NCBI GenBank assembly: GCA_025174535.1
Contig: JALBUN010000047.1
Location: 248,001 to 312,000 of the forward strand
DNA length: 64,000 nt
Direction of reading: 5' to 3'
Source: Cantharellus purpuraceus
Taxonomy: Eukaryota; Basidiomycota; Agaricomycetes; Cantharellales; Hydnaceae
The notes under the pieces are model-generated. The model ran no database searches. It was not told where the DNA came from and saw only the letters and a list, made by a program, of their open reading frames with translations. Made by a program: the position numbers and the translations under genes. This document shows, piece after piece, positions 7,723-63,892 of this stretch. Position 1 is the stretch's first letter; each line of letters starts with the position of its first letter.

Positions 7723-9140
7723 TTGTAATTTCGTGTCCTCAGCTGGTGAATATGACCCCAATCGTGCGTCGCAGCGCGTTCTGGCGCGATCCTTGGTCGT
7801 AGTTTCCGGTTACCTATAAATTACAAACATCAACAAACAACCGCGTCTCGGAGTTTCAAAGTTTCCCAAACCATTTCAACCAACAACTCACTGGTCTACG
7901 TGGTGGTTATTCTGCTACAAGGATCGCGTGCAAATTTAACACGGAGCATATGTTGCGTTAAAATTTCCTACCTCAGCAAGAAACATTTCCCTCTGGTCCA
8001 GCTTAGAGGTTTACCAACCACAGCTTTCTAGCTTCATGGAGACCCTTCAATTCCCATATCAACTCAAGGTGCTACCACAAGCAGGATGATACCCCAAATC
8101 GACTTTTGAATCCTCCAATGTATTTTATTTATATGCACAACCCCGGCCGCAAGCACTCAACCAAATGCACAAAAGTGTCCATCTAGTCACTCTAAGACAA
8201 AAAAAAACACCCTCACCACGTCATGAACCAATCCTTCCAGTGATCCAGCGCACTTGACCATGCAAGCACCAGTGATACACTACGCGGCCGGGCCTAACCT
8301 ACTCCTTCTACATCCCCACCAGACTCGATTAGTAAAGCGTAGTACAGGAATGACAGAATGAGAAAAACAGCTGTAGTAACTAAGCATCAAGAAGAATGAA
8401 AATGAAAGCAAAAAAAAAAAAATTCATTGTAACACTACTGTGGGGATCCAAGCATCGAAAAAGAAAATCACCCAATCGAGTAGAAAAGAAAACCAGTTTT
8501 ATAAACTAAATTTTTGTAAAAGGCGGCAGTGTGATAGCGCAACGAGGAAGAGCGAGCATGTGACCGTATTGATGACGTATGACACAGGAAAACAAATAAA
8601 AGTGGGGTGGTCCAGGGGGACCACTGATGTATGTGTATGAAATCCAAGTGAGCCAAATGAGATGATGGCATGGAGACAGCGACGAGGAGATGGTGGCAAG
8701 GGGAGATGGGGGGCGGGGATCCAGACAAGGACAAGTCGAGGAAGACACGATAATGAACATCCAGCGGCCAGGCATGGGATGGGGGGGAAAATTAACTTGG
8801 TGGCAATATGGGTGGCAATAGGATAGCAATGTGGGTGGCAATATGGGTTGCGATATGGGGGGGCAATATGATGCGACGAGGTGAAACAAAATGAGAGCTC
8901 GGAACGGAAGGACATGGTGGCGCCGCCGCCGAGGGTCGGTGGACGGTTAGATAGGGAGTCGGACAGGCAGGAAATATTGTAGGCGAGTAACCGGGCAAGC
9001 AAGCAGCACGGAAAGCGCGGGCGCAAATGCAGGAAGCTGGGGCTTGGAGCTGGAGAGAGGGAACCCCCCGTGCGCAACACGCCGGAAGAAACACCCTCCC
9101 AAAAGCAAGCAAGCAAGCACCCACCACAGATCCCCACCCT
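7723..9140. other. Intergenic, upstream of DSN1 and downstream of the GATA gene
   Basis: No coding sequence recognised. Around 8805-8870 there is a loose array of ggcaatatgggt-like words. Homopurine/homopyrimidine bias produces long but unconvincing open frames. Confidence 0.5.
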
Positions 9141-12075
9141 CTAACTCGGACTCCCCCTCGCATTCGAACTCCTCATCAAACTCGTCGAAAACGCCGACAT
9201 CTCATAACCCCCTGTATCCTCTCTATGCACTGACGACGACGTCCCAGTCGCCCCCGTAGCCCCAGGCGCACCGGGAGGAGGCCCAGACCCCCCCGGCGGC
9301 GTCCACTGATGTACTTGCATCGTCACCCCCATCTGCGCCGCCAGTCCCCCGCCCCCTCCACTTCCCCCGCCCCCACCACCACCTCCCCCCGCCCCGCCAC
9401 CAGAAAGAGGCACAGGCTGCAGCTGAATCTCTGCCATATCCCCCCCGCCCCCCGGTCCCGTCGAATGATGCATTCCCCCCACCCTCCCTCCCACTCCCAC
9501 CCCCATCCCCGCACCCGGTAGACCACTGACACCCGGACCCACTCCCACCGTTGGCTGGCTGCCTCCTATCATATCTGCCGTAAGCCCCGTCGACGCACGC
9601 AACATCTCCAGATCAATCGGCGGCGCATCCGCATGTGCATCCGGCCCCATCGCCTTGTCCCGTTTGCGTATCAACTTGGCGTAGTCTGCAGCACCCCCAC
9701 CGTATCAGTCCCATGTTTCGAATTAAAAGTGTAATTGGAATTAGGATTGGGATTGGGATTGGGATTGAGATTGAAATTGGAACAGAAATTCGTCTGTGAG
9801 GAGGATATACGCACGCAAACCACATGCATTGCACAAGGTCCGTGCACCATCAGGACCACGTCGCCACTCAGGCGTTTCTCGTATATTGCACGAATGGCAT
9901 TTGCCAGGAGGTGTCTGTCGCTGCAAAGAAGCCCAAATCACCGAAACAAAAGGAAAAGAAAGGAATCCATCAGCAAACCGCCCTGATCATCACCCAAATC
10001 ATTACAAAACTCACACTACGCTTGCGGTACTTTGCCTTGACAATTCCCTGCCCCACCGGAGTAACCCCGCTCCCCGCTCCCCGCTTACTCCGTATAATCG
10101 CCATATCCTTCTCGGCCACACTCCGCAACGTAGAAAGATCCTTCACATCAAACGAAGATGCACCTGCATGCTACAAACGAAAAAAAAAAAAAATTCAGCA
10201 TTGAACACGCAAAACCCCAGCCGCAGACACAATAAAAATTAAAAAACCTACATCTTCCACCGCCCGCTCCGCTTGTCCCTGTACACCCTCCTCCTCTCCT
10301 TCCCCCTCCACCCCTCCACCCCCTCCCCCAGCATCCTCCCACGGCCTCTTCTTACTCCCCTTCACCTTCACCTTCTCGTCCTCCCTCTCCCTCTCCCTCT
10401 CCCTCTCCCTCTCCCTCTCCCTCTCCCTCTCCCTCTCCATCCCAACCACCACACCCGCAGTCGCATATCCCCCCCTCTCCCCATTCGGCGACGCCAGCGG
10501 AGGCGCCAAAACCCCCGTCGCAGACGCTATCCGCCTCAAGTCCTCAACAAGCTGCAACACCAGATTCGCTCGCCGCGCCATTCCCGCCACTTCCGCCGAC
10601 GACGGGCGTATATGTGGCGCAGCAGCTACATCAAAATAACTATATCAGGCACACCGTTCAACAGACGGCGTCACGTAGCATGCCACACACCATAATGATT
10701 AGCAAAATCACACAACACCCTCGAGTGTTCCATAATCTTCACACACAACACCGTCAAAACACAACACATGTCAAACAAAAAAAAGGCCCGCACCTTGCTC
10801 AAATGCATGCCCTCTGCCGCAGCCCTCTGCGAGTCCTCGTCCAACATCTTTGGATCCATCCCCCTCACACTCCCCGTCCCAGACACCAAGCCCCCACCCC
10901 CTCCACCCCCCATGGTTCCCGCTCCCGTCCCTGGCCCCACATATCCCGCCGCAACAGCCGCAGCCGAGGGCGATCCATACTCCGCCCCCGCCGGCCCCTG
11001 CGCCATCCCGCCTCCAGGCCCTGCCAACGTCACAGAAGACGAGCTGGGAGTCGGCGGCCCAAGATGTGCCTGTGCCGGGGGACCAGTAGCGGCAGCAGCT
11101 GCCGCCGCCGCTGCGGAGAAAGAGGGCGCGCGTGCATGGGGCTGGAGCGGTGAGTGTGCTCCGGGGTGTTGGGGGTATGACGGGAACTGCAGGGTATGCT
11201 TTTGAGATGAAACGGTTTGTGGGGGGGGTAGTGGTGGTGGTGGTGGTGGTGGTGCTCCTGCACCTGTAGGTTGTTGCGGTTGCTGGTGGTGATGAGGATG
11301 ATGCGAATGGTGGTGGTGCGGGTGTTGTTGTTGCGGTTGCTGCTGGTGATGCTGCTGTGGTGGGGGTGGGTTAGGGGGTGGTGGGTGCGGATGCTGTTGT
11401 TGGTGGGGAGATTGGTAGTACCACGGCAGACGAGGGTAGTATGAAGAGGGATGGGGTGGTGACGTCTCTGGCTGCTGCTGCTGTGAATGGTGTGCATGTG
11501 GATACTGCGGGGGAGCTCCATGTGTGTGCCCTTGGGCATACCCCCCTCCTCCACCCGATGTCCTGCCTTGCGCCTCAGGTGGCTGCGGATGATACAGACT
11601 GGGCGAGGTGGTCGACTGAAGAGCGTACGGTGATCGCGGACCAGAATTCGAAGCAGAGCGGGCACGTTTGACCGGCGGTGGTGCTAGCACGGTATGGGAA
11701 GAAGACGAGGAGGCATCTGTAATATATATTCCTAAAATGAGATAAAAACAGGCCAAAAGGATTCAGAAGGGACGGGAACAAACCGCCCTGGTAATACGGC
11801 ATGTCTCTCTGCTGGTGATAGTGCTCGTCCGCCTGGGCGAACGGAACGCGGGGAGGCTGGTCGACACGTTGCTGGGTCTGTCCAGGAGCCTCCACCGACG
11901 CCGAACCAGGCTCGCCGACAGGGGGATATGCAAAATTGAGGCTACGCAAGGACGGAAGGCGTCGATCGGGCGTTTGTACGCCGCTGGATGTCGGCGGCGG
12001 CGGCGGGAGATGGGGACTCGACTGAGTGTGGGTGTGTTGGTGCAACAAATGCGGATAACCAGAATGCGAAGCCAT
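9141..12075 (-). CDS. GATA-type zinc-finger transcription factor (Gat1-like)
   Basis: Exons: 12075-11784, 11716-10794, 10736-10691, 10625-10248, 10163-10015, 9920-9815 and 9685-9141, giving 812 aa. The zinc finger spans exons 6 and 7: [18 protein letters not shown], then CNACGLHYAKL, spacing C-x2-C-x18-C-x2-C, preceded by YRKRSRQTPPGK. It should bind GATA sites in DNA. Upstream, exon 3 and the start of exon 4 encode a helical segment ([17 protein letters not shown] then [15 protein letters not shown]), and exon 5 has [18 protein letters not shown]. Most of the rest is low complexity: His/Gln/Pro tracts, poly-Ala, poly-Gly and a Glu-Arg dipeptide run. No PAS domain was seen, so it is not a standard WC-2. 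The architecture resembles the fruiting-related Gat1 of Schizophyllum, from memory. The upstream TTG-start extension is not used; 12075 is the first ATG. Confidence 0.85.
10381..10437 (+). repeat. Hexanucleotide repeat inside the GATA gene
   Basis: (ctccct)n on the plus strand. On the coding strand it encodes an alternating Arg-Glu run of roughly 20 residues within exon 4. Length variation here would change the protein without breaking the frame. Confidence 0.9.
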
Positions 12076-33264: not shown

Positions 33265-36200
33265 CTAACAGATCTGGACATTCCTCTGGGAGGCAACCAG
33301 CAACTCGGATATTTGCTTGTGTAGAGTTGGGAGGACCCGCTTCAAAAATGGGTCTTGTATGTGTTGGATACCATCCCATTCATGTTGTGGATCTTCTTCG
33401 TCAAGTTTACTGCACACCTTTTCAACCAACTCTATTAGACGGTTGCTTGCTTCACTCTCGTCCCGTTGTCTCCTTGCATATTCAACAAGCGACGGAAGAG
33501 CTGCACGGCACTCCTTAGTAGAAACGTCCGACATACCGGTCCCCCGCCTCCTTCTAAAGCCGTTAAGATTGAATATGTAACGCCAGGCTCGCAGAATAAG
33601 TGGCCAAATTGACTCCGCCTGGACTGCGGTAGACAATGGGTGTTGTTTGCCAGCTGCATCAATTATTGCAAAAATGTGCGCAACAGGTACAGCATAATCG
33701 TCAAATTCATCACCTCCTTTGGAAGACAGTGTTTTTGCAGTGGCAAGACAGTTGTTGAAATGACCGTTCTGCTGAAGTTGAGGATGCCAAGTGGACTCTT
33801 GGGAAAGGGCACAAAGTAACCTGGGGTAGGGAGTATGATGGAGCGAGAAGAAAGAGAGGTGTATGAATGGGCAATTGGTAGGCATTTGTGAAGCAAGTAG
33901 GAGGACCGTTGAAGCCAGCGCTTGTGAGAACTGTGTTCGGAGTAATTCATCGTCGCGACCCATTGAAGCCACTCTTGACCGAATGACACAAGCCGTATGC
34001 AGGGCTGCAGTGTCACCCTTGCCCATGAAACGCATCAGCATGTCAATGTAACAGCGCTCCCGGTCCGGGGTACTCGGCGATCCACACAACCACTCCAACA
34101 AAAAAAGTGTGTGTCTGATTGCCTCATCATCTGTGCCTTGACAAATGCGTAGATGGTAACCCACAAGCAGGTCAAACTGATCCTTGGTGGAAAGCCCACT
34201 TGCATTCTGGAGCGGGGCTGGAAGAAGGATACAAATAAGATGGGCGACACTCTTGGATCGGACTTGATCATCCCCCAGTGTGCCAGAATCATCCGCGATT
34301 AAAGAACAACACAATTAGAGAGCCCGTTTGAATCCGCGATGATCGCTGACCACATAATTTGTGTCCAAGCATGCAAGCAGTAGATGAATCAGCCTCAGTG
34401 AATTCCCGTGCCATCTGTGATTGCGAATCTCATCAAGAAGTACAGCTAGCGTGCGATTCATAGCTGTTTGTTGAAATGCTTCAATGGTTTGACTGCAGAA
34501 GCGATAAGTTAACAATGGACTATCCCAAATGTCTATCTTCTTACCTCTTGTCAAGCCTCACCAAGTCCCGTCGATCAATGTGAAGGCCGACTAGCATGCC
34601 TGCTAGTAATACACAGTCCGCCACCAGGCGTCGGGGGGAGAAGGGTGACTTGGAGCCAAGGCAGATGCCAATGAATTTAATTGCAAAGGCGTCAAATTCA
34701 GGATCATGTTTAGCCTTGTGCAGACGGTAAGTGAACATATGTGCCATCCACATCCTGTCTGATAAAGGGAGGCGCGTCATGTCTAGATGATTGGGTGGTT
34801 CATCTACGGCAGAGCAAACGACCAGAAAGCCTGGATCATCTGGGATCATGTGCCAGTACGTGCCATGGGCATAATCACCTTTGAAGACTATGTCACCGTC
34901 GGTGTATATATCAAACGGGTTGTTCAAATCTCGTTCAACACAAAATCGCCACATTGCTTTCAAACACGCCACCGCGCCTACTTGTGCGAGGGGAAGAATC
35001 TGCCGATCAGGGTCAAAGCACGCATAGAAGCCACTTTTCAATCTGTCCACGAGCGCGTCAGTTACCTCCACTCTGGCCGGCCATTCAATCACCGGTACTA
35101 TTCCGGCTGCTGCAGTTATAATGTCTATGTCTCAAGTGCCCACTGAACAGCACGGGGTGGCACAGCGTCTGCTGGTGAAAACTCGGCATGTGACCCTGGA
35201 AAACTATAATCAAGCTGATTGGAAGACAACATCTGTTCCCCAGTAGCTCCTAACTGCTCCAACCCTATAACCGCCTCTGGGCCGGCAGTCGGCAGGGGGG
35301 CTTGGGAGAGACATGGGGCAAAACGCACAATCCATTCCAAGATCAGGCTCTTTGCAGCGGAAAAGGCATTCCTCGAGAACTTTCGAAAGCGATCCGGCAT
35401 GCCTTCCCATGTTTTTGCAACCGACATTCTAAAGGGAGTCACACGCTGAAGTACCATTGACACCGGCGTCTGGAATGGACAGTCGGGCGATTTCAGCGGA
35501 CACCACGGTGAAGAAATAGAATATAGATCCGAACGTCGTTGTCGCTATACTTACACTTGCAACTGCATGTTGCAAAGTCCAGATATTGGCGGCGAGAGCA
35601 ATCCCAAAAAAGAGCAGCGACATCTGGAGTAAGATCGGCAGAGTGGCGATGATGGTGTTGAAATGCCATGCTGCCAGTGTGTCCAGCTTCTTCTGTCTAC
35701 GCTGGCAGCGTTCGTGCAACGTGCCTTGTCCGAAACGCATTGTTTTGAAGTGGCCTAGCCATTGTTTTCCTAGCACTGCACCGAATGCAGCTAAAAGACT
35801 ATTCGAGAGGCCTGTGTATGCCAGCGTCTGAATCCAAATAGTGGTAGAGCTCGGTCCAGTCCAGACGGGAGGGGATGCCTGCTGCACAGGAAACATAGGA
35901 CTGTTGATTGTGTTGATTAATATCATTAAGAGGGAGTTGGTGGTGTCGCTGGGAGCTGGACTGAGACTCGATTGCATGTTGACAATGAAAGCCGAGCTGA
36001 CAGCCGAGAATAAACCAGCCTGAACGATGTGTTTTTAAGTGATAATCAACGTAAAGAACGGAACACATACGAATATGAGCAGTACATCTAGACCACCGTT
36101 GTGTCTCTCGATCAGCTCGTCATCATGTTGTTTAGCCACGCGTTCATATGTAGACCAGAAACGGGAGGGGGAATCCTTTCTCGTGCGTTCAAACATATCT

Positions 36201-46372: not shown

Positions 46373-46717
46373 ATGTCTGAACAAGTGAAGGTATGTTGCA
46401 CTGCAGTACACCCTGTGATTGATTTTCACGAGTCTTGACTATTAGCACGCGTCTGACTTGCCAGAGGCCGAATCCCAAAAGCACAATCCTGAAAGTCTAC
46501 GGTACCGATCCTGGTTTCATCCTCTGACATTAGGCACATGTTTCGCTCCATGCACGTCTGAACAAGAGAAGGTCTGTAGCCTTGCGGTATACATACGATT
46601 GCTGATACTCAATCGTGTTGGTAATTAGGCTGAGGCCCTGAAGCATGACCCTGAAGGTCTGTGTCGATCGTGGCTTCATGACCTGACATTGTTGTTGAAT
46701 TCTCCCTGTATTTATAG
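46373..46717 (+). repeat. Duplicated N-terminal exon pair
   Basis: The block from 46371 (catgtctgaacaagtgaagg) and the block from 46546 (catgcacgtctgaacaagag) are two copies of one roughly 172-bp unit. Each has a SEQ-V/E-K exon, an intron, an EAExxKHxPE exon and a following intron ending ctgacatt. Confidence 0.75.
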
Positions 46718-49700
46718 ACACCCATAAATCCCCACCCAAGGATATCATCACTACTCCCTCCAAGTCTGATCAGGCCAAAACTAGTGACAGCCCATATGCC
46801 TCATACTATCGTTCTGATGCACGCATCTGGTCGCTCTATTTGAAGGAAACGGAGGCCGAAGACAAAGAATTGGTGTTGCTGTGGCAGAATGGTCTTGACT
46901 CTCTTTTGGTATTCGTGAGTGCAATTTTTCACCTGTACAAGGTCCAAGTCTGATGTGTCTTAGGCCGGTCTGTTCGCTGGAATTCTGACCGCATTCCTGA
47001 TCGAAAGCCGGAAGGGATTGCAGGCAGATCCACAAGTGCTATTGCTACAGGAAATTCTCTCTACTCTTCGGAACGATTCAATTATACCCACGTCTTCTTT
47101 CTATCCAACCACGCCGTCCTTGCATGTGAACTATCTGTGGTTTACCAGTTTGACGTTTACCCTCATCGGTGCTCTTGCCGGAGTGCTCGCCAAAGGTTGG
47201 CTTGCAAAATATGCACCGGCATCTCCAGGAGTATCTTCCAGCGATGCCTGTGAGCGTCATCTCCGCGCCATTGGGGCTTACAAATGGCATTTCAGTGCAG
47301 TCATCAATGGAATCCCGTTCCTGATCCAGCTTGCCCTCTTTTTGTTCTTCCCGGGACTCGTCCTATTCATCTTGGATAACAGCAGTGGGATTGGCTATAC
47401 CATTCTTCTCTTGATCGTTTTCACTGCGGCTATCTATCTTTTGGGGACCGTCTTGCCGTGGTTCTCCCCTGGGTGCCCATTTCAGACCACGATGTCTGAC
47501 TTTATACCGGGGCTGGCAAGAAACGCACGATACAAGCACAATCGCGCTTCTTCTTACAGGATAGGAAAGTCAGACTCTAGCCAGTGTTTGTCATTCTGGG
47601 ACGCCATTGTGGATCTTTGTCGTAAACCTGGACAAACGGAACTTGAAGTGACTATTCTGTCCTGGATCATCACAAACTCTACTGTAGAGAATAATATCGA
47701 AGAAGCCGTCAGAGTTGTAGCAGGTATGCCTTCGGCATACTTGGACGCATGGGGGGACACGATGGCCAAGTCTGGAGCTGTGTCAGTACTTTGCGAGAGG
47801 TTCTCCCGATGCTTTAAGCTTTCTACGGATCTCCAAATGACTACGGCTAATATCAATCGAGTCGAGGCCTATCTTTATGCTCTGCTCTCAGTTGCGAAGA
47901 CAGACCCCAAGTCATCCGTTGAATTGTTGGGACCCGGAAAACAATTGCACCGGTGGGATAATTTTCAGCCGTGCCTGCAATCTCTGGCGTTTTGTGTACG
48001 AATAGAAATCTTACTCGCGGCGGAAAAAGATGATCATCATGAGGAATGGGAGCAAACGAAGAGGAGCTTGAAGTCTATGTGTCAAACCGGGTCACCTAAA
48101 AATTTGGTGAAGAAGTTGATGGACGCGGCGACTCGCAGTATCGAAAGAGGAGGCGATCGCTTACAAAGAACAGGCACAATTTTACTCTCTTTACTAACGA
48201 AGATCGGAAAGTCCTCGCAACAATTCAGTTCATTGGTTACCAGCAGCACCAGAGGTACCATGGACAACAGTGTGGCTTCGTCGACAAAGAATGAGCGGGA
48301 TACAATAGCAAAGCTTTGTGCATTGTTCAAAGACAGGGATGCCGACATCCGTGACGCAGCTTCACTTGGACTTATAAAACTAGGGTATTATGGTGCGCCA
48401 TGGAAACTTGTGCGAAGTGAGCAATGAAAACTGAAAACAATGGCAGGTCCATTCCAAGTCGTGATCAAAAGTGCCGTTCCTCAGATTATCGAGTTGCTGA
48501 AGGACGGTGACTGGCATATCCAATCAGCTGGCGCAAGTGCATTGGACAAACTAGCTGAGCAATGTATGTGATCACACTCACCGTTGTCTTTAATGAGTCT
48601 GATGTCTGTGTCCAGCCATATTCCATGAGACGATCAAGGGTGTAGTACCTCAGATCATCGAGTTACTCAAGGACAGTAACTGGAGTGTCCGATCAACCGC
48701 TGACAATGCAATTGGTAAACTGGCTGAACGAAGTATGTGATCGCGCTAATCACGCTCTTTGACAAGACTAATGCCTGTCTAGCCGCATTCCATGAGACGA
48801 TCAAGGGCGCCGTTCCACAGATTATTGAGTTGCTCAAGGACAGTGACCGGAATGTCCAATTGGCCGCTACAAGTACAATTGGTAAACTGGCTGAGCAACG
48901 TATGTGATCATGCTCACCACGCTCTTTTACAGGGCTGATGCCTTTTCTAGCCGCATTCCATGAGACAATCATGGGTGCTATTTCTCAGATCGTTGAGTTG
49001 CTCGAGGACAGTGACCTACGTGTCAGATTAGCTGTTGCAACTTCAATTGGGAAATTAGCTGGGCAACGTATGTCATCCTGCTCACTGTGCTCTTTAATGA
49101 GACTGATATCTGTGTCTAGCCGCGTTCCATGAGACGATCAAGGGTGCTGTTCCTCATGTCGTTGAGTTGCTCAAGGACAGTGACTTGCGTGTCCGATCGG
49201 CCGGTGCAACTGCAATTAGTAAATTAGCTGAGCAATGTATGTGATGGTGCTCACCGCGCTCTCTCGATGAGCTTATGTCCGTGTCTAGCCGCGTTCCATG
49301 AGACGCTCAAGGGTGCCGTTCCTCACATCATCGAGTCGCTCAAGGACAGTTATTTGCGTGTCCGTGCATATGGTGCAGATGCAATTGGGAAACTGGCTGA
49401 GCAATGTATGTGATCACACTCACCATGGTCTTTCATGAGTTTATGCCCATGTCTAGCCATATTCCATGAGATGATAAAGGGTGCCATTCCTCAGATCATC
49501 GAGTTGCTGAAGGAAAATGACCGGAGTGTCCGATTGACCGCTAAAGATGCAATTGGTAAACTGGCTGAGCAACGTATGTGATTGCGCTCACCACACTCTT
49601 TGACAAGGCTAATGTCCGTGTACAGCCACATTCCATGAGACGATCAAGGGTACCATTCCTCAGATCATTGAGTTTCTCAAGGACAGTGATATGCGTGTCC

Positions 49701-52700
49701 GATCAGCTGGTGCAACTGCAATTGGCAAACTGTTTGAGCAATGTATGTGATGGCACTCACCACGCTCTTTGAAACGCTGAAGTCTGTTTCAAGCCGCATT
49801 CCATGAGATGATCAATGGTGCCATTCCTCAGGTCATCGAATTGCTCAAAGACAGAGACTGGCATGTCCGATTTGCTAGTGCAAGTGCAGTAGGCAGTCTG
49901 GCTGAGAAACGTATGTGATGGTGCTCACCATACTCTTTGGTAAGGCTGATGCCCATGTCTAGCCGCATTCTATGACACCATCAAAGGCACTGTGCCTGAC
50001 ATCATTGAGTGGCTCGAAGACAGCAACTGGTATGTCCGATCAGCTGGTGCAAGGGCAATAGGCAAACTGGCCGGGAAACGTATGTGATGGCGCCCCCCAC
50101 ACTCTGTGACGAGTCTAATGTTTGTTTTTAGCCCAATTCTATGACACAATTAAGGGTGCTGTCCCTCAGACCATCGAGTTGCTCAAGGACAGGGACTGGC
50201 ATGTCCGATCAGCTGGTGCACATACAATTGGAAAACTGGCTCAGCAATGTATGTAATGTTGCTGATCATGCTCTTTAGTGACACTGATGTCCGTTTCTAG
50301 CCCTGTTCCATGACGCGATTCAGTGTGCCGTCCCTCAGATTGTTGAGTTGCTCAAAGACAGTAGCTGGGATGTTCAGTCAACTGCTACAAAGGTACTTGG
50401 CATTCTCTCTGACCAAAGTACAGTATATTTTTTTCTCCTAGGTCTTTCATGTTGCTAAAACCGAATTTCAGTCGACATTTACCCACAACTGAAGATAGAT
50501 ATAGTCAATTTGCACGCCCAGATTGTCCATGAAAACACTGCTGTTGCGAATGCAGCTGCCATCGTATTTCAAGCAATTGCTCAACGAAGTAGGCCTTCCC
50601 TATCCATGTAATCATCGTTTTATCCTTGCTCATGCATAATTGTAGCCGATCCAGTAAATTGGCTGGGACACGGGCTATCAACATTTCTTGCCCAATCCTC
50701 CTCTTTATCAATGGTTCCCAAAGGCTCCTCACATTCATATGTAGATGTTCGTGGTAAGTTCCCATTTGCTGGCACATTAATCCTCTCACACAGCATTGTG
50801 TCGCAAGGGAGTTCATATAGTAGTCCGATACTGGCTGCCTGTTTAAATATCCATGGCAACAACTGCGAACTTCGTTATAATGGTATCCAATGCCTCTCCT
50901 TATTAGTTTCCTACAGTATGTGGTCCACAATTTGACTTCTCTCACACCAGCACATATCACCTTTGCAGTCCGCAAAAACACAATCTTTATTCCTCACTTC
51001 TCAACACATGTTATCGCACAGCTCCAGTCTCATGTGTCAGAACTGAGGTACAGTGCCACAATGGCTATGGGTACATGCGCCAAATACAGTTTAGTGGCGG
51101 TGCTTATTTCTCGGTGACGAAGCTGATGTCCATGCCTAGCCGTATTCCATGAGCCGATCAAGGGCGCCCTTCCTCAGATCGTTGAATTGCTCAAGGACAG
51201 TGACTTGCGTATCAGATTGGCTGGTGCAGCTGCAATTGGGAAATTAGCTGAACAACGTATGTGATGGTGCTCACCATGGTCTTTGAAGAGCTGATACCCG
51301 TATCTAGCCGCATTCCATGAAACGATCAAGGGTACTGTCCCTCAGATCATTGAATTCCTCAAGGGCAGCGACGCGCGAGTCCGATCGGCCGTGGTAACTG
51401 TCATTAGTAAACTTGCCGAGCAACGTATGTGACAGCGCTCACCGTGCTCTTTGACGAGCTTATGTCCGTATCTAGCTGAATTCCATGAGATGATCCAGAG
51501 TGCCATTCCTCAGATCATCGAGTTGCTCAAGGACAGTTATTTGCGTGTCCGTGCATATGGTGCAGATGCAATTGGGAAACTGGCTGAGCAATGTATGTGA
51601 TCACACTCACCATGGTCTTTCATGAGTTTATGCCCATGTCTAGCCATATTCCATGAGATGATAAAGGGTGCCATTCCTCAGATCATCGAGTTGCTGAAGG
51701 AAAATGACCGGAGTGTCCGATTGACCGCTAAAGATGCAATTGGTAAACTGGCTGAGCAACGTATGTGATTGCGCTCACCATAGTCTTTGATGAGCTTATA
51801 TCCGTGTCTAGCCGAATTCCACGAGACGATCAAGAGTGCCATTCCTCAGATCATTGAGTTTCTCAAGGACAGTGACTTGCGCATTGGATCAGCCTGTGCA
51901 ACTACAATTGGGAAACTAGCTGAGCAACGTATGTGATGGTGCTCACCAGTCTTTGACGAGCTCATGTCCGTGTCTAGCCGAATTCCACGAGACGATCAAG
52001 AGTGCGATTCCTCAGCTCATCGAGTTGCTCAAGGGCAATGACTGGCATGTCCGATCGGCTAGTGCAAGTACAGTGGGCAGGCTGGCTGAGAAACGTGTGT
52101 GATGGTGCTCACCGCGCTCTTTGATGAGCTTATGTCCGTATCTAGCCAAATTCCACGAGATGATCAAGAGTGCCGTTCCTCAGATCATCAAGTTGCTCAA
52201 GGACAATGACTGGCATGTCCGGTCAGCCGGTGCAACTGCAGCAGGCAATCTGGCTGAGAATCGTATGTGATGGTGCTCACCACAGTCCTAGATGAGCTTA
52301 TGTCTGTGTCTAGCCGCATTCTATGACACGATCAAGGACGCCGTTCCTCAGATCGTCGAGTTACTCAAGGATAGAGGCTGGAATGTCCGATCAGCTAGTG
52401 CAAGTGCATTGGGCAGACTGGCTCAGAAACGTACGTGATGGTGCTCACCAGAGTCTTTGACGAGCTTATATCCGTGTCTAGCCGAATTCCACGAGACGAT
52501 CAAGGGTGCCATTCCGCAAATCATTGTGTTGCTCAAGGACAGAGACTGGCATGTTCGATTAGCTAGTGCAAGTGCAGTGGGCAGGCTGGCTGAGCAACGT
52601 ATGTGATGGTGCTCACCATAGTCATTGAGCTTACGTTCGTGTCTAGCCGAATTCCATGAAATAATCAAGGGTGCCATTCCCCGGATCATTGGATTTCTCG

Positions 52701-53579
52701 CGGAAAGTGACATGCATGTCCGATCGGGCGCTGCAACTGCAATTGGGAAACTGGCTGAGCAATGTACGTAATGGAACCCACCCCGCTTTTTAACAGGGCT
52801 GATGACTGTGTCTAGCCGCATTCTATGACGTGATCAAGGGCGCCGTTCCCCAGATCGTCGAGTTGCTCAAGGACAGTGATTCGGATGTCCAATCGGCTGC
52901 TAAAAATGCAATTGGTAAACTGGCTGAACAAAGTCGACGTTTAGACCTGCTTGCAGACCGATTCCTTGATTCATTGCTTTCGTCCTTAATGTCATTACTC
53001 AAGACCGATTCTCCATTCGCCCAGTCTGCTGCCATGGACTTGCTGTCCGACTTGCTGCCCGAGCTGCCCGGTCACGGTTGGGTAACTCTTCTCGATTATA
53101 GCACCATTGCTGATATTTTTCCATTCAGCACTTGCCAGCCTTCCTGATAAATTTACCGTCTCCGATCTTCTGACTGTTCTCAAATGCAAAGATAGCACTG
53201 TCTCGGCCTCCGCTGCCCGCCTTTTTGGTGTACTCGCCACCCGGTCCTACATCAATGGCTCTTTTTCCACAGATCAATTTTCGGCGGCCATTCTGAATGT
53301 CGTTTTGTATGCTTTTGCCTGCCTTGATCATGTAGACGTTGGATTTCAAATATGTGGAACATCCATCCTCAGTGTTTTGATAGATCATGATGGTATATTG
53401 GCATTTCTGCATCTCCTGGTCTGATGATTTACTTTTTTTTTAGGTATTTTTAGGGATATCATTTCAGAAGTTGGTGCCATCCGTGGGTTTATTCAAATGT
53501 TTGCGAAAGATATTTCTCCTCGTCAGCAAGAACAATTACTGTATTCCCTGCAGGAATTCGGCATTTTGACGACCTTGTG
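46373..53579 (+). CDS. DUF6535 membrane protein fused to a long HEAT-repeat array
   Basis: Early exons are 46373-46390, 46446-46494, 46534-46571, 46629-46656, 46718-46914 and 46964-48392. They give a polar N-terminus (MSEQVKHASDLPEAESQ), then SLLVFAGLFAGILTAFLIES and the DUF6535 core with strong helices (WFTSLTFTLIGALAGVLAKG; GYTILLLIVFTAAIYLLG). From 48447 onward each exon is about 117 bp, starts in phase 1 and encodes one repeat like FHETIKGAVPQIIELLKDS then VRSAGATAIGKLAEQ. There are 12 such modules to 50405, a few divergent ones, then 11 more to 52935. The C-terminus (LPDKFTVSDLLTVLK; EQLLYSLQEFGILTTL) ends at 53579. HEAT repeats form protein-binding solenoids; the helices suggest membrane anchoring. 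Function is unknown. All visible repeat exons keep the same phase, so the gene looks intact, but exons between 50645 and 51120 are unresolved. Confidence 0.85.
48447..50405 (+). repeat. HEAT exon-intron array A (12 modules)
   Basis: Exon starts recur about every 168 bp: 48447, 48616, 48782, 48951, 49121, 49289, 49458, 49626, 49794, 49963, 50132 and 50300 (each good to within a few bases). Each module has an exon beginning cc-cattccatgag, a donor gtatgtgat, and an intron ending gtgtctag or similar. Introns are as similar to one another as exons are. Confidence 0.9.
49338..49593 (+). repeat. 256-bp block identical to 51525-51780
   Basis: Every base matches, across part of one HEAT exon, a complete intron, the next exon and part of its intron. 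Flanking modules differ, so this block was copied recently. Confidence 0.93.
50406..51139 (+). other. Divergent module island inside the HEAT array
   Basis: It includes an exon from 50474 (IYPQLKIDIVNLHAQIVHEN), one from 50645 (DPVNWLGHGLSTFLAQSSSL), a segment near 50790-50930 and one from about 50956 (ITFAVRKNTIFIPHFSTH). These are helical and spliced at the same phase but do not match the regular repeat. The exon near 50790-50930 is not open in the expected frame with the junctions I can see. Confidence 0.55.
51140..52935 (+). repeat. HEAT exon-intron array B (11 modules)
   Basis: Exon starts near 51140, 51308, 51475, 51644, 51811, 51978, 52145, 52314, 52481, 52648 and 52817, with the same splice phase and intron words as array A. 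The last module reads straight into the non-repeat C-terminal region. Confidence 0.9.
51525..51780 (+). repeat. 256-bp block identical to 49338-49593
   Basis: Second copy of the exact block, 2,187 bp downstream of the first and in the same orientation. Confidence 0.93.
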
Positions 53580-53582
53580 ATG

Positions 53583-56150: not shown

Positions 56151-59100
56151 ATGATCTCCAACGCTCACGACCACACGCGCACTACGCTTCGAGTGGACAA
56201 CCTCCACTGCTCGTCATGCGTGGCGTCCATCACAGATATCGTCGCCAGCTACTCCCCCTTTGAAGAGCACGCGAACTCCACGTCGCCCATCACCGACCTT
56301 GACATTTCCCTGCCAGAACGGACCGTGTCTTTCACTCATCCGAAAGGGTTCGATCTGAAGCCGATTCTAAAACAACTCGACGCATCAGGATTTGACGTGT
56401 GGCCACTGCCACCAGACACCGCTACCACACCCCCCACAAAAATCGCTGATCCCTCCAAATGGAGATCCTTCCTCAAAGGCACCTTCGTATATCGAGACGT
56501 CAAGTCCTCTCAACGTCAAACGACCCACAGAGAAATTTGCAGCGCCTGCCGTGCCTTGGAAAGTGCCAGCAATAGCACCGTCGCGAGTGTGGACAGGTTA
56601 GAGAAGCAGGCTCTGCAAGAATCAAGATTTGCCATTGAGGGAATGACATGCAGGTAAGTTGGCAACCCAATGCAAGACCAACATTCTGACCATCGGTCCC
56701 TCATCAGCTCATGCACGTCTGCGATATCCGACATTCTGTCACCTTCATCTGAGCCCGGCATCCGCTCCTGCAAAGTGACGCTGCTGCCCCCCTCTGCGCT
56801 CGTCGTCCACGACGCCAACGCGCTCTCCGTCCATAATATTAAGGAGCTCATCGAGAACGCTGGCTATGGGGCAGAGCTCGTCACGTCCAAGAGCATCTCC
56901 GCGGCCGCCGCTTCTGACTCTCTACAAGACGTGACAACATACAAAGCAAAATTCTCAATCTTGGGCATGACCTGCGCCTCGTGCGTGTCTTCGGTCACAC
57001 GAGCTATGGACAGTGTCCCAGGGACAACCATGGTGTCTGTTGATTTGATTGGCAACACAGGCTCTGTCGTCGTGCCGCGTAAAGAGGATGTGGAGCTCGT
57101 CAGAAGTGAAATTGAAGACGTCGGATTCGAGTGCTCTGTAGTCGAGGTCTCGGAACTCCGAAAAACCAGGGCAACGAATCAATTCATCTCGCGGGTAGTA
57201 ACGATCAGCGTGGACGGCATGTTCTGCGGGTGAGTTGGTTTCAAGTTCTTCATGAGCGAGTTCTGATCGTGATGTTAGGGTATGCGTCACAAAGGTCAAC
57301 AATGCGCTCGCGACTCTTTCGCAATGTCATGGAATCACCTTTGACCCCATCACACTCGACCGCCCTACCACGACCCTCACTTATACACCCCGCCCTCCCT
57401 CGTTCACGCTCAGATTCATTCGCGAAGAAATCGCTTCTCTCGGATTCACAGTCTCGGTTGTCCATGTCGACAGCATCGAGGAGCGTGCCGCTCGCGCTCG
57501 CATGCGCGAGCAACGGCACCTTCTTCTGCGACTGGGCATCACGTTTCTGTTCGCCGTCCCTACCTTCGTCGTTGCCGTGCTCGGCATGTCGCTTCTCAGC
57601 AACACAAACACCTTCCGGAAACAATTGGAGATGCCGGCGTGGGGCAACGCCTCGCGTGGAACCATGATCCTCTTTGCGCTTGCCACGCCTGTCCAATTCG
57701 GGGTTGGCTGGTTCTTTTACGAGCATGCTTGGAAGAGCCTTAGAGGTGTGTGGAGGAGGCGCAAGGCCGGGACAAGCTGGCGGAGGGTCTGGTGGGAACG
57801 GCTCCTCAGATGGGGAAGTATGGACTCTTTAGTGTCACTGGGAACATCTGCGGGGTACTTTGCTAGTCTGGCATTGATGATCTTGGACATCAGGACCACG
57901 CCGGTTCAAGGCATGATGGGGGGTGAGATGGGGTGGTTCGATAGCTCTGTTTTCTTAATGGTATGCGCAGCTGTTCCTGCCGATGGTTGTGATTTTTGCT
58001 TATGCTCACGATACCAGCTATTCATCATTGCCGGCAGGTACTTGGATTCCATAAGCAAGCAGCGGACCGGCGACGCCATCACCACCCTATCTTCCACCAA
58101 ACCATCCACAGGACTGCTCTACTCAACGGTCACATCAACCGTCGCTTCCGAGGCGGTGGACTTCCTCGAAGTGGGGGATGTGCTCCTGGTCCCGGCGGGG
58201 GCCTCGCCGCCCTTGGACGCGGTCCTGACCGATGCAAGTCCGAAGACGACGTTTGACGAGTCGGCGCTTACGGGTGAAGCGCGCCCTGTGTTGAAGGCTC
58301 CCGGCGACGAGGTGTTTGCGGGCACCACAAACGCAGGGCCTGCAGCAGCCATCGTCGCTGTCACCAATGACGTCGGACACACGATGCTGGACGGCATCGT
58401 GGGGGTGGTCCGAGACGCCATGGGAAAGAAGGCGGGCATCGAGCGGATCGCGGATACGGTCACGGGCTATTTCGTGCCCTTTGTGGTATTCGTCGCTTCC
58501 CTGACATTTATCGTGTGGAGTTTGCGTGGGTATTTGGGCGATTTACCGTCTGAATGGATCGATGGTCGCCGGGGTGGTGGCTGGGCGTTGTTTGCCATCC
58601 AGTTTGGGGTTGCGGTCTTGGTGGTGGCATGTCCCTGTGGTGAGTTACACACTTGCGTATATGTGGGTGCAACTGATGGACGTTGGCAAACTTGAAACAG
58701 GCATAGGACTGGCAGCGCCAACGGCACAAATGATTGGCGTGGGTATTGCCGCACAGCATGGCATACTCTCGAACGGGGGCGGCGAGGCGTTCCAGACGAT
58801 CTCATCGATGAACACCGTGGTGCTCGACAAGACGGGCACCTTGACGACCAGCAAATTTACCGTGTCGGACCACAAGCTGTTCGGCGACGGTGCAGGTGCA
58901 TCGCGTGGACTTGTTCTCTCCATGTTACATATAGCAGAACAAACATCGACGCATCCGCTGGCGGTCGGCGTGCGGGACTGGTGCAATGAGCAGCTGTCGT
59001 CTGAAACCGTCGTTCGTCCCGCCCCCGTGGACCTCGTCTCCTCCGAGGAGATTCCCGGCCGAGGTCTTCTCGCCATGCTCAACGTCGCGGGAACCAAAAT

Positions 59101-59998
59101 CGAAGTGGCGATCGGAAACGAGACACTGATGGAGGATGTCAACGCAGTATGGGGAGGAGAGACGTCATCAAAGGACGATCTGCTCGGGTGGAAGATGGCC
59201 GGCAAGAGCGTCGTCGTCTTGTCCGCCCGAGTGATAGCGGAGCCACCGGCGGCGGCACCGGAGGCGATGATGCGCCTGCCTGTCACCGCTGACACCCACA
59301 CCGTCCTGGGCGTGTTCGGCGTGCACGACCCGCCGAGAGCGGAGGCGTCGACCGTGATTGCTGAGCTGCGACAGCTTCACATGGACGTGTGGATGATATC
59401 GGGGGATAATCTCATCACTGCCAACGCCGTCGCGCAAAGCGTGGGCATTGACAAGTCTCACGTCGTCGCCGGCGCGCTGCCACAAGACAAGCAGTCGTGG
59501 GTGAAACAGCTCCAGACGGCGTCAGGAGAGCCGCGTTCCGGGGGCAGGGGCCGGTGGTGGCGGTGGAGGAGAGGCACGCCCGCAAAGCAGAGGACCATTG
59601 TCGCCTTCTGCGGAGACGGCATCAACGACGCGCCCGCCATTGCGCAGGCAGACGTGGGGCTGGCGATGGGGGGCGGATCGGCGGTCGCCGTGTCCACCGC
59701 CGACGTTTGCCTGCTCAGCTCCAACCTGCTGGCCCTCCTGACGGTGCACCACCTGGCGCGCGCGACGCGGCGCAAGATTGTGACCAATTTCGTGTGGGCG
59801 TGCGTGTACAATGTGGCGCTGATGCCTCTGGCGGCGGGGGCGTTTTATTCGCTGGGGCGGACGACGCTGCCGCCGGTGTGGGGCTCTGCGGCCATGGCGC
59901 TGTCGTCCATCTCGGTTGTGGTGAATTCGCTGTTCTTGAGGTGGCTGTATACGCCTCCCAGGGCGGTGCGGAAGTGGACGCGCGGTAACGAGGCGTGA
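56151..59998 (+). CDS. CCC2: Copper-transporting P1B-type ATPase
   Basis: Pumps Cu+ into the secretory pathway, where secreted copper enzymes such as laccase are loaded. Exons: 56151-56653, 56708-57229, 57279-57960, 58018-58639 and 58701-59998, giving 1208 aa. Four N-terminal metal-binding sites are visible: HCSSC (C20, C23), GMTCSSC, GMTCASC and MFCGVC. Core motifs: phosphatase TGEA, channel CPC (774-776, read CPCGIGLAAPT), the phosphorylated Asp of DKTGT (819), the nucleotide-binding HP in STHPLAV, and GDGINDAPAIAQADVGLAMG. The last intron splits the codon right after CPC. A Gly/Arg/Trp-rich insert (GGRGRWWRWRRGTPAKQ) sits just before the GDGIND loop. The start chosen is the first ATG before the first metal site. 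Confidence 0.95.
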
Positions 59999-60071: not shown

Positions 60072-60991
60072 ACTTTTCACCACCACACGGCGCCCTGCAT
60101 AAGACGACGGCCTTGGCGCTCCTGACGTGTCCATCGCTGCCAAACTCGGCTCCGACGTCCACCACGCCACTGGGATGTGAGATTCTGACCAGCCCTTGCT
60201 GTGGCCTGGCGGGGTTCGGGCCTGCTGCTGAACGATGCGCTGGGCGACGGTCATGGGGACGGCGCGGTGGAGTACGCCCATGGACATGGCGTGGATGCTG
60301 ATGGAGGGGTCGAGACCCATGGCGAGGGCGCCTGCGTGTCGACGAGGGAGAGGGTGTATGTGACGTCTGTGCCGTCGGGGTGGGCGACGGCGAGGCGGTC
60401 GACGGGGTTGCCGGTGGGGAGGAGTGTGCCGGTCCTGGCACCGGCGGGAGTGACGAAATTGAGTGGTATCTGTGATGCCTTTCCGGGCACGCCCGCGATG
60501 GAAGTCTGCTGGAGGGGAAAGGTGGTGTGGATCTCCTTGTGGGTGTTGGTGTTCCAGAGGCGGACGGTGCCTAGGGCACAGCCCCCGCCTGATGATGGGC
60601 GTGTGATGTGGGGGGTGCAGATGCCCTCGTCGACAGCGAATGCGCCGGCCATGCACGACAGATTGCCGCAGTGGCCAGAATAGTCGACGTCGGCGTCCCG
60701 GACCCCGACCTGGGCAAAGGTGTACTCTGCGTCCACCCCTGCGGCGGCCCCGTGCGACGACCATGATTTTGGAGAGGGAGGAGACGCCGCCGCCCATGCC
60801 GTCCAGCTGGCGTGCGTGCTGCGGGTCTGGGGAGCCCATGATGCGCGAGAAGATGGGGGACCAGGCGGCGTGCGGTTGATGAAGATGCCCTTGGACGTCC
60901 CGCCGCGGAGGAACGCAGCTGGCAGGGGATTGGCTGTGGTTCTGCGCCATGACGCGGTTTCAGACTCCGCTCCTCCTCCCCTTGATACCAT
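60072..60991 (-). pseudogene. prpF: PrpF-family isomerase, frame-broken
   Basis: The PrpF family isomerises substituted aconitates and related acids. The family order is preserved but spread over three frames: FLRGGTSKGIFINR, then shifted SRIMGSPDPQHARQLDGMGG with SSLSKIMVV, then back to DAEYTFAQVGV with DYSGHCGNLSCMAGAFAVDE and TGTLLPTGNPVDRLAV, then shifted MGVLHRAVPMTVAQR, then shifted ISHPSGVVDVGAEFGSDG ending at 60072. At least four frame changes are needed with no GT-AG introns to explain them. The stretch around INR also looks shortened. This is a pseudogene or a poorly assembled GC-rich region. It converges on the Cu-ATPase 3' end. Confidence 0.75.
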
Positions 60992-61742
60992 GGCCTCGTA
61001 TGTGCGCGCCTGGTGGTTTGGCGCAGCAGCACCGTCTCCGTCGCCCGTCGCTAGCCCACCACCCATCGTCGTATCGGCAGAGGAAACACAAGAGGCGATA
61101 TACGACGATGCCGTGGGTGGAGACGAAGACATTCCCCCCGCTTTTCCCAGCCTCCATAGTATACAGCGCTCGTCGCGGCGCGATGCAGCAGCAGCAGCAG
61201 CACTCATGCCGCCCCCTGCGCTGCCCGCCTCCAACCCACCTGCCGCGTCGACGCTGCAGCTCCCGCCGCCCGCCGCCCCATCGAAGAAACGCGGCAAAGT
61301 CGCCCTGGCACCCGGCCACAGCCCGCTGGACTGGGCGGCGCTGAAGGCGTCTGGCCAGGATCTCCGGGTGGGGCTGACTCTACACACACACACACACGCC
61401 TGCCTGACACACGCCCGTCGCACAGGGCACACCGGGCCTCATGCGCGTGACCCCGTCGCAGCTCAAGCTGCACAATACACGCGACGACGCATGGTCCAGC
61501 TTCAACGGCAGAGTCTACAACATCACGCCCTACCTGTCGTTCCACCCCGGCGGCGAGCGGGAGCTCATGCGCGTGGCGGGCCGGGACGGCACCAAGCTGT
61601 TCGGTAGGTGCGCCGTGTGTCGTTGCGGTCTGGCTGACGTGTGCTCTGGACAGCGCTCACACACGCGTGGGTGAACGTCGAGTTTATGCTCGACGAGTGT
61701 ATGGTGGGCTTTCTCGTCTCGGAACCCTTGTCTGCTGCATAG
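60990..61742 (+). CDS. Cytochrome b5-like heme-binding protein
   Basis: Three exons, 60990-61367, 61426-61603 and 61654-61742, give 214 aa. The N-terminal half is disordered (Ala/Pro/Ser-rich, basic KKRGKVALAPGH), followed by PLDWAALKASGQDLR. The cytochrome b5 fold runs from about residue 128: LMRVTPSQLKLHNTRDDAWS, FNGRVYNITPYLSFHPGGER (first heme His in HPGG), and LTHAWVNVEFMLDECMVGFL (second heme ligand His in THAW). It resembles yeast Irc21 and the cytochrome b5 part of fungal reductases; no reductase domain follows. The start codon lies in CCATGG, shared with the opposite-strand PrpF start. Confidence 0.88.
61383..61397 (+). repeat. Short (ac)n repeat in the first cytochrome b5 intron
   Basis: About seven ac units inside the intron at 61368-61425. 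Confidence 0.85.
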
Positions 61743-62224: not shown

Positions 62225-63892
62225 ATGCAGGCTGCCTCCCCGTCGTCGTCCACCACGACGCCCTCGCCCCCCCTCTCCTTTCTCCACCCCCCCGATGCCC
62301 CAGATACGCTCCACCTCCCCCATCTCGAGCCCCACGAGCGGGAGGAGCGCCGGCGCGCCGTCCAGAAGCTCTTTGAACGCGCAGAGTACTCAAAGGTGTG
62401 TCATCCGTCCCTCCCCCGTCCCACCCAAGGGCGCGCGATGCCGCCCATGTCGCCGTGTGCCCAGACGCGTCGATAGGCCGTCGCCGCCCCCCAGCACGCC
62501 CCCGCCTGCCACTCCCCCCCCCGCCGTCCCCTGCCCGTCGTCCCCTGCCCCCAGTCCATGCTGACACGTGTGCCGCGCAGCTGACACGCGGCCTGCGTGC
62601 TCGCCTCGCCTACGCGTCCTACAAGGCCGCCAACAACCTCTCCCACGTCCCCCTCCCCGTCCTCGAGGACCGCATCCACGACTGCCTGCCGTCCCCCGCC
62701 CCGTCGCCCTCCCCGCTGCCCCCGCCGCCGCCGCCGCCGTCAACCCCTAACTCCCCCGCCCATAAGCGCCGCGCAGCCATGGCCCCGCCCTTGTCGCCCT
62801 CCCGCAGCCTCTACGCCTCCCTCCTCGGCCCCCCGCCCTCCAAGCGGCCGCGCCACGTATACGGCCCTGCCGCTGCCCCGGGCGCCGCCCCCACCCCCGC
62901 GGACCTCCTCCCCTCCTACAGCCCCGCCACGCCCCGCAAGCCGCCACCCAGTCCCCAGCGCTCCGCGCACGCCAGCTCGCCCTTTGCCAGCGGCGCACAG
63001 GGCAGGACCGTCCGCACGGTCCTCCAGGGCCGTGCCCGCAGCACCGTCACCGAGAAGGAGGACATGAACGCCGCCGCCACGCTCACGGCGCTCATGTTCA
63101 ACCGCGCGTCGCCCCGGCAGCAGCGCGGCGAGGACGGCGGCGTGCGCACGACCACCCCTGCCCCGTCGTCGCAGGAGCACAAGGTCACGGAAGACGCAGA
63201 TGCCGCCGAGCTGATGCTGTATCTGGCGACGAGCCCGTCGCCTGCACGCCCCACGGTCGCGCGGCGTGCCCCCGGGTCCATGGGACGCGTTCTGTTTGCG
63301 TGTGCCGGTGCCGGTGCTGGCAGGCCGGATGGGGACGGTCTGACGGAGGGGAGCAGGACGCCGGCGTTGACTGCGGGCCAGTCGTCGATTCCGTCGTCGC
63401 AGGAGACGAATGCGACGGGGACGCAGCTGCTTCCGCCGCCGCCGTCTCCGTCGCGCCGAGCTGATGCTGTATCTGGCGACGAGCCCGTCGCCTGCACGCC
63501 CCACGGTCGCGCGGCGTGCCCCCGGGTCCATGGGACGCGTTCTGTTTGCGTGTGCCGGTGCCGGTGCTGGCAGGCCGGATGGGGACGGTCTGACGGAGGG
63601 GAGCAGGACGCCGGCGTTGACTGCGGGCCAGTCGTCGATTCCGTCGTCGCAGGAGACGAATGCGACGGGGACGCAGCTGCTTCCGCCGCCGCCGTCTCCG
63701 TCGCGGACGCTTGCGGGGACGCCGGTGGGGATGGGGAAGAAGGGAGGGGGGGGGGTGTCGAGGCGGCTGTTTGTGGAGAGTGAGGGTGGGGGGGGTGCTG
63801 CTGGTGCTGCTGGTGCTGCTGCTGGTGCTGGTGCTGGTGCTGGTGCTAGGTTTGGGTTGGGGAAGGGCATTGATTTGGTGGAGGCCAAGTAA
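62225..63892 (+). CDS. Putative Whi5/Nrm1-like cell-cycle transcription repressor, 3' end disrupted
   Basis: Exon 1 (62225-62395) ends EREERRRAVQKLFERAEYSK and exon 2 starts at 62581 with LTRGLRARLAYASYKAANNL. Together they make a helical block like the GTB/Whi5-type motif that binds G1/S transcription factors. Later come DMNAAATLTALMFNRAS and AAELMLYLATSPSPARPT, patterns I associate with basidiomycete Whi5-like proteins; assignment is tentative. An exact 250-bp tandem duplication (63204-63705) shifts the frame. As written, the first frame runs on to a stop at 63783. With one copy only, the frame would continue through RTLAGTPVGMGKKGGGGVSR to a stop at 63892 (GKGIDLVEAK), which looks like the natural end. 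Confidence 0.5.
63204..63705 (+). repeat. Exact 250-bp tandem duplication in coding sequence
   Basis: 63204-63453 is repeated at once as 63454-63703, with the match running to about 63705 and no mismatch seen. 250 is not a multiple of three, so it shifts the frame of the host gene. Confidence 0.95.

Follow-up and report, generated by a model that had tools for sequence, protein, structure and literature searches.

The 64,000-nucleotide stretch of Cantharellus purpuraceus DNA analyzed here (contig JALBUN010000047.1, positions 248,001 to 312,000; hereafter the window, to which coordinates refer unless a paralog is named) carries, at 46373–53580 on the forward strand, a predicted gene that joins a DUF6535 membrane domain to 23 HEAT modules, each encoded by its own exon. 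On balance, and with modest confidence, we favor the view that in agaric-type fungi the product serves as a recognition protein tethered to the membrane, and that its binding face would be renewed by the exchange of exon-intron units. Sequence comparisons support the predicted gene structure, the copying of exon-intron units, the gain and loss of modules among paralogs, a mosaic paralog, a conserved membrane anchor and hinge, and variation at the putative binding face.

Architecture of the DUF6535-HEAT gene

The exon-intron structure of the gene was modeled from the sequence by predicted splicing. The model comprises 33 exons that form a single open frame of 1,807 codons followed by TGA at 53578–53580, and 30 of its 32 introns are in phase 1, with both phase-0 introns preceding the HEAT array. 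From the N- to the C-terminus, the predicted protein comprises a four-helix DUF6535 membrane domain, 12 HEAT modules, a hinge encoded by four exons, 11 further modules, and a C-terminal cap. Among the full-length proteins found, the closest is P0001 from Mycena albidolilacea, which covers 94% of the query (exons 3–33) at 37% identity and has the same order: a DUF6535-like start, 13 modules, a gap, 10 modules (23 detectable in all), and a C-terminal part.

The first two exons are short leaders: exon 1 (46373–46390, encoding MSEQVK with the predicted start) is followed by a phase-0 intron and exon 2 (46446–46494) by a 223-bp phase-1 intron. They were placed there because the exons and their splice sites, including the exon 1 donor, are conserved in three paralogs (C36, C32, and C25a) and because the residues AESQKHN of exon 2 recur near the start of P0001. 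By eye, a degenerate second copy of the leader exon region lies within the intron preceding exon 3 (46550–46690); C36, C32, and C25a have this copy as well. Exon 3 (46718–46914) encodes an N-terminal helix and the start of DUF6535, and exon 4 (46964–48416) encodes the remainder of DUF6535 and a helical, armadillo-like linker, as indicated by Pfam (PF20153), hydropathy, the ratio of nonsynonymous to synonymous change (dN/dS), and a structural model of the relative P0030 (mean predicted local distance difference test score, pLDDT, of 80). DUF6535 scores 150.9 bits against a cut-off of 23.9 over positions 1–176 of the 177-position profile, and the score rises to 153.1 bits when exons 1 and 2 are included. 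Exons 3 and 4 together encode four hydrophobic segments, and the loop between helices 2 and 3 contains five basic and two acidic residues; hydropathy and loop charge thus suggest that both ends of the protein face the cytosol. A Pfam scan up to E 0.1 of the N-terminal 573 amino acids, hinge, and cap returned DUF6535 and, beyond it, only a HEAT match below threshold in the hinge and a single match at chance level; it yielded no match in the cap and no NACHT or NB-ARC domain.

Block 1 of the array (48447–50417) comprises 12 modules that start at 48447, 48616, 48783, 48951, 49120, 49289, 49457, 49626, 49794, 49963, 50132, and 50301, and block 2 (51140–52932) comprises 11 that start at 51140, 51308, 51476, 51644, 51812, 51978, 52146, 52314, 52482, 52647, and 52816. 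Each of the 23 modules measures exactly 117 bp and is preceded by AG and followed by GT; the GT following module 23 is unused in the model because its exon continues into the C-terminal part. The modules contain no in-frame stop in the coding frame, versus stops in 16 and 23 of the 23 modules in the other two frames, and intron retention would introduce a stop within three codons at 20 of the 22 sites where an intron follows a module. Introns between adjacent modules within each block are 48–52 bp in length, such that the exon-intron unit measures about 168 bp, and array introns are uniformly in phase 1. Scores against the Pfam profiles PF02985 (362 bits) and PF13646 (283.6 bits) identify the modules as HEAT repeats. 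Pairwise DNA identity among module exons ranges from 60 to 100% (mean of 74.6%; mean protein identity of 59%), and modules 7 and 16 are the sole pair with identical exons. Intron interiors are 75.2% identical on average, versus 74.6% for exons, and this likeness suggests that introns travel with exons.

A sequence-only reading of this region had described some 23 near-identical modules, one per exon, at 46373–53579. The 23 modules, their one-to-one relation to exons, the unit of a 117-bp exon plus an intron of roughly 50 bp, the equal likeness of introns and exons, and the DUF6535 assignment were all borne out. Near-identity was rejected at a mean DNA identity of 75%, the array proved to be divided by the hinge, and the span, although its start fits the conserved leader exon, ends one base short of the stop codon's last base. 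The same reading had proposed that the gain or loss of whole modules preserves the reading frame, and this agrees with the shared phase 1, the 117-bp length, and the stop-free modules: with every array intron in phase 1, module exchange leaves the frame unbroken. The symmetry of all module exons also means that the product of a single allele could be varied at the RNA level by exon skipping.

The hinge (50472–51088) comprises four divergent HEAT-like exons (50472–50588, 50646–50753, 50808–50915, and 50951–51088), and the cap (52933–53580) comprises the remainder of exon 31 past module 23 together with exons 53129–53392 and 53444–53580. The hinge bears on whether the locus is one gene or an annotation artifact in which a DUF6535 gene and separate HEAT genes are divided by an intergenic region. 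The modeled nature of the splicing, a weak donor (GTTTAG) and a 35-bp intron in the hinge, and the arrays at C10, for which we found no N-terminal partner and no nearby DUF6535 among the matches listed, would all be compatible with two genes. However, the open frame spans anchor, hinge, and cap with a single intron phase from the start of the array onward, and P0001, a single predicted protein, has a module-free gap of about 110 amino acids at the position equivalent to the hinge. Moreover, the lengths and frame of the hinge exons are mostly kept across seven paralogs, with dN/dS of 0.34–0.57 (i.e., below 0.6) on gap-free exons. The exceptions are a stop in hinge exon 1 of C32, a shorter exon 2 in C27 (96 bp), a longer exon 4 in C1a (141 bp), an exon 4 that is off frame in the alignment in C20b, a GC donor of exon 2 in C37a, C20b, and C27 (with no aligned AG acceptor in C27), and an exon 4 acceptor that does not align to AG in C36, C32, and C38. 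We therefore reject the two-gene reading as highly improbable.

Turnover of the array among paralogs

Among the matches listed, DUF6535 has at least 132 profile matches in this genome, where one gene may match more than once. DNA searches identified at least 12 places in the genome (the window and at least 11 others) at which almost the entire DUF6535 stretch is matched, with array matches alongside. The search for further DUF6535-HEAT fusions suggested by the sequence-only reading thus succeeded both here and, with P0001, in Mycena albidolilacea. The arrays counted comprise about 18 to 39 modules when those inferred from gap sizes are included (in brackets, modules detected by the scan): 12+11 (12+11) in the window gene, 12+12 (12+11) in C36, 12+6 (11+5) in C32, 24+15 (22+14) in C27, 13+12 (10+11) in C20b, 15+11 (12+10) in C37a, and 11+12 (10+11) in C1a. 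C38, which is collinear with C32, has 12+6 by the same gap rule.

Three observations bear out the earlier proposal that the array grows by the copying of exon-intron units as DNA. First, a 256-bp tract that runs from within module 6 through its intron and the whole of module 7 into the following intron (49338–49593, forward strand) recurs exactly in modules 15–16 (51525–51780, forward strand), 2,187 bp downstream. Second, C36 has six more whole modules than C32 and C38, seen as a jump of about 1,000 bp in the alignment offset with 93–95% identity on either side. Third, C1c is a mosaic: its positions 1118–6050 follow C1b (95.9% identity), and its positions 6051–11142 continue along C20b after a step back of 2.04 kb (96.9%). 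Over its first 5.3 kb, C1c is also similar to C20b (94.2%). With fixed-length exons, a near-uniform phase, a variable number of units, and exchange among paralogs, the family has, as far as modeled splicing allows, the properties of exon-per-module genes. Identical or near-identical copies were also identified (C37a and C1b over 9,643 bp; C20a and C20b over 4,678 bp), and these may represent haplotypes, recent duplicates, or assembly effects.

Comparison of the window gene with C36 indicates that the array differs more at silent sites than its flanks do. Synonymous difference is 0.227 in the anchor (the DUF6535 exon) and 0.216 in the hinge, versus 0.344 between modules at the same position and a scarcely higher 0.371 between modules at other positions. 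When module 1 is excluded, a bootstrap test of the array's excess over the anchor gives p of 0.0006. Module 1 best keeps its place, with 86% identity to its counterpart in C36, versus 68–79% for the other eleven modules of block 1. Synonymous difference of the same-position array exceeds that of the anchor in seven of eight paralogs compared with the window gene. The anchor is under purifying selection (dN/dS of 0.21–0.28 against the eight paralogs, which have open DUF6535 frames of 376–509 amino acids), and array dN/dS at the same positions is 0.39–0.57. The greater divergence of the array relative to anchor and hinge suggests that in the closest members of the family the array has turned over between two orthologous flanks; judged from these silent sites, the array between the conserved anchor and hinge has lost positional orthology.

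Some members of the family are damaged: C32 and C38 carry stops, and stops or partial loss of DUF6535 were observed in C32, C38, C25a, and the copy at C32:174631. At C25:3136–3772, C38:59912–60659, and C32:174631–175378, some 950–1,080 bp of the DUF6535 region are missing with similar breakpoints, and array matches follow. In L035 and L037, open reading frames (ORFs) that by eye resemble Copia gag-pol were noted close to matches to the HEAT array. Such damage and the nearby Copia-like ORFs would be expected if the family were decaying after amplification, with recombination-prone repeats that have no function and a window copy that is a recent survivor. We consider this improbable given that the frame of the window gene stays open for 1,807 codons, that the DUF6535 frames of the eight paralogs are open and their anchors constrained, and that 23 modules with a middle gap recur in P0001.

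Variation at the predicted binding face

The alphaRep binders, the modules of which are 31 residues in length, were among the closest solved sequences to modules 1–6; the PP2A scaffold and importins were also among the PDB matches. In the portion of the alphaRep report available (PMC3754942), the varied positions of the library are given as 18, 19, 22, 23, 26, and 30. By fit to the motif xxVRxxAAxALGx, these correspond to module positions 22, 23, 26, 27, 30, and 34 of the array (hereafter the six positions). A structural model of the relative P0027 (mean pLDDT of 68) yields helix pairs, and the six positions sit in the second helix in both modules checked.

The sequence-only reading had suggested that dN/dS be determined for each repeat position on the concave HEAT surface. 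We estimated omega, a parsimony-based dN/dS, on FastTree trees, assuming one tree for recombining modules. The data set excluded the copies C25a, C25b, C1b, C1c, C20a, and C37b, as well as any module that was a duplicate, contained a stop, or was so divergent that the module scan missed it. In clade A (73 unique modules), omega was 1.41 at the six positions versus 0.70 elsewhere (Fisher p of 0.0009; permutation p of 0.039), and in clade B (99 modules) it was 1.38 versus 0.78 (p of 8e-6; permutation p of 0.015). Entropy was likewise higher at the six positions than at the rest (1.96 versus 1.18, permutation p of 0.004; 2.61 versus 1.58, p of 0.00025), although only three (clade A) and four (clade B) of the six rank among the ten most variable, and positions 1, 20, 21, and 28 vary as well. 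Concentration at the six positions was also evaluated in six hand-picked, non-random Mycena arrays (P0001, P0067, P0069, P0070, P0071, and P0072) after modules out of register were dropped (5 of 23, 0 of 20, 2 of 12, 2 of 12, 1 of 10, and 0 of 15, respectively). The p values were 0.0005, 0.0008, 0.010, 0.039, 0.10, and 0.32, such that four of the six arrays fell below 0.05 and P0070 and P0071 were not significant. Concentration of diversity on the expected binding face was thus found in both clades and in four Mycena arrays; the check by position yielded a modest group omega of about 1.4, with no single site surviving correction.

Among positional orthologs in block 1 of C36, C32, and C38, there were 42 amino-acid and 13 silent changes; 14 amino-acid and no silent changes fell at the six positions, 9 of them at position 23 alone (nominal p of 1.2e-6, or 4.7e-5 after 38-fold correction, among three copies of which two are damaged). 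With two of the three copies damaged, part of this change may reflect relaxed constraint. Collectively, these data are suggestive of positive selection at the putative binding face, for which only the preset six positions as a group and position 23 stand out.

These sequence data would be explained most simply by a HEAT solenoid that is tethered to the membrane and has a binding face open to renewal. We infer a cytosolic location of the array, ligand binding, non-self recognition, and a downstream response. The four helices of DUF6535 would anchor the protein with its solenoid in the cytosol, where the solenoid would bind a variable partner along the concave surface that the inner helices of its modules create. 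Whole modules would be added, removed, and swapped by unequal crossing-over or gene conversion, whether inside one paralog or from one paralog to another, while amino-acid change would accumulate where the second helix is exposed. The membrane domain would then receive the binding signal and probably start a defense or incompatibility response.

HEAT proteins are often scaffolds, and the gene could instead encode a membrane-bound tether or trafficking scaffold in which units recombine passively, modules evolve in concert neutrally, and exposed positions are simply less constrained. Consistent with this, omega is below 1 over the whole array (0.80 and 0.89), the tree-based test of positive selection leaves no individual codon significant after correction, and the PDB matches include the PP2A scaffold and importins. 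Change at the varied positions would also be predicted by relaxed constraint, as these positions are expected to be exposed. However, group omega exceeds 1 at six preset positions in both clades, the recent set has 14 amino-acid against no silent changes at those positions, and turnover of an array beside a conserved anchor and hinge would be unusual for a protein with fixed partners. On these grounds, we regard a scaffold as unlikely, if far from implausible.

Several further observations weigh against the recognition reading. The whole-array omega and the failure of any single codon to survive correction imply that relaxed constraint explains part of the variation, and recombination violates the single-tree assumption of the selection test. 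The array of C1a has no excess over the anchor relative to the window gene (synonymous differences of 0.457 and 0.458), nor does the recent pair C36/C32 yet have one (0.035 and 0.031), and in the six paralogs besides C36 and C32, silent sites place modules at the same position no closer together than modules at other positions. Anchor dN/dS is higher in the recent pairs C36/C32 and C37a/C37b (0.47–0.50, from few changes), and the stops in C32 and C38 suggest that some of the recent change in these two copies may be neutral. We know of no function for DUF6535, and sequence searches returned no solved relative of it.

Relatives, neighboring features, and known systems

Module protein identity is 59% within the window gene and 58% within P0001 but only 38% between the two, indicating from sequence that modules homogenize within lineages. 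The Mycena proteins named armadillo-type in databases, such as P0001, P0067, and P0072, resemble the window gene in that their peaks of variation overlap its positions and differ from it in module consensus. A DUF6535 protein, P0006, is also present in the agaric Coprinopsis cinerea. P0067 differs further in having, by eye, a membrane-ankyrin-HEAT order, and DUF6535 is not among the 25 of its 30 Pfam families shown. Elsewhere in fungi, related HEAT arrays are joined to NACHT (P0079), to PF09994 or DUF2235 (P0070 and P0076), to PF00069, a protein kinase domain (P0071), and to ankyrin (P0078 and P0085). This range of partners fits a sensor part that is reused with different outputs. A partial protein on a 15.7-kb contig filed under the glomeromycete Acaulospora colombiana (P0002) matches 50% of the query and has, by eye, a DUF6535-like N-terminus followed by HEAT repeats, which may reflect contamination or transfer.

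Two further DUF6535 matches were identified in the window: an ORF at 1450–2421 on the reverse strand (323 amino acids, 99.7 bits) and a full-profile match at 35576–36157 on the reverse strand (153.7 bits). The ORF downstream of the latter (33265–34314) had no Pfam match up to E 1e-5. Downstream of the DUF6535-HEAT gene are pieces of a P-type ATPase (E1-E2_ATPase and Hydrolase) at 57502–59998 on the forward strand, a PrpF-family ORF at 60251–61432 on the reverse strand, and a tandem duplication of a 250-bp unit at 63204–63705 (two copies, 100% match) that overlaps long ORFs.

The sequence-only reading, which these data support in part, had inferred variable recognition from the layout and had likened the gene to fungal NOD-like receptors (NLRs, of the STAND class of signal transduction ATPases with numerous domains) with repeat arrays, a likeness that holds for behavior but not for domain content. 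According to the portions of published work available, some fungal NLRs, NACHT-HEAT proteins among them, have highly conserved repeats, defined by an identity threshold of >85% (PMC4986451), and HEAT is a main repeat type of NLRs with N-NACHT in fungi (PMC12258605). As described there, such NLRs share with the window gene tandem repeats that are alike and evolve in concert, variation in repeat number, and variable sites on the concave face (a predicted face in the window gene), and they have diverse N-terminal domains. The window gene differs in its N-terminal membrane domain, in having one module per exon, in a module number that varies among paralogs rather than strains, and in modules that are less alike, with mean identities (59% protein, 74.6% DNA) below the 85% threshold. 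Membership among NLRs was rejected, as the Pfam scan outside the array found neither NACHT nor NB-ARC. The genome itself has 12 NACHT matches, 9 of which are above the cut-off.

DUF6535-HEAT proteins are already present in databases; in the literature searched, which left most subscription journals out of scope and was judged largely by titles, DUF6535 occurs in one paper, and we found no description of a fungal exon-per-module HEAT gene or of a DUF6535-HEAT class. Only 23% of the N-terminal domains of basidiomycete NLRs are annotated according to the available part of one survey (PMC9815663), which suggests that little is charted of the recognition proteins that mushroom-forming fungi possess. 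Tentatively, DUF6535-HEAT proteins could represent a second hypervariable recognition class in agaric-type fungi, one that is membrane-tethered, needs no nucleotide-binding switch, and would be a natural counterpart of engineered binder libraries, with exon-intron exchange in the genome building the solenoid out of interchangeable modules and selection tuning the alphaRep-equivalent positions; we hold this to be possible but somewhat doubtful. In that event, a large DUF6535 family, some members of which rebuild the face of their arrays, would provide candidate incompatibility or defense loci.

Two systems outside the NLRs offer parallels for parts of the gene. The alphaRep proteins, as far as the available portion of the report describes them (PMC3754942), share HEAT-like modules with the window gene, and their variable positions map, by motif fit, onto the six positions; they differ in being soluble, engineered from thermostable HEAT-like repeats, and selected by phage display. 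The window gene would thus be a natural case in which the varied positions coincide with those chosen by engineers of HEAT binders. For gene structure, the nearest precedent found is that of the leucine-rich repeat (LRR) genes of Tetrahymena, for which the available portion of the report (PMC6564038) describes one 90-bp exon per repeat unit, introns that are >98% in phase 2, and, in T. thermophila, 1 to 51 units per gene with ectopic recombination among genes. These genes differ from the window gene in that they encode LRR rather than HEAT units, have exons of 90 rather than 117 bp, and occur in a ciliate; the portion available mentions neither DUF6535 nor selection on a binding face. They share with it a fixed-length exon per unit, a nearly single intron phase, a variable number of units, and exchange between genes, and the DUF6535-HEAT gene would constitute a fungal parallel to them.

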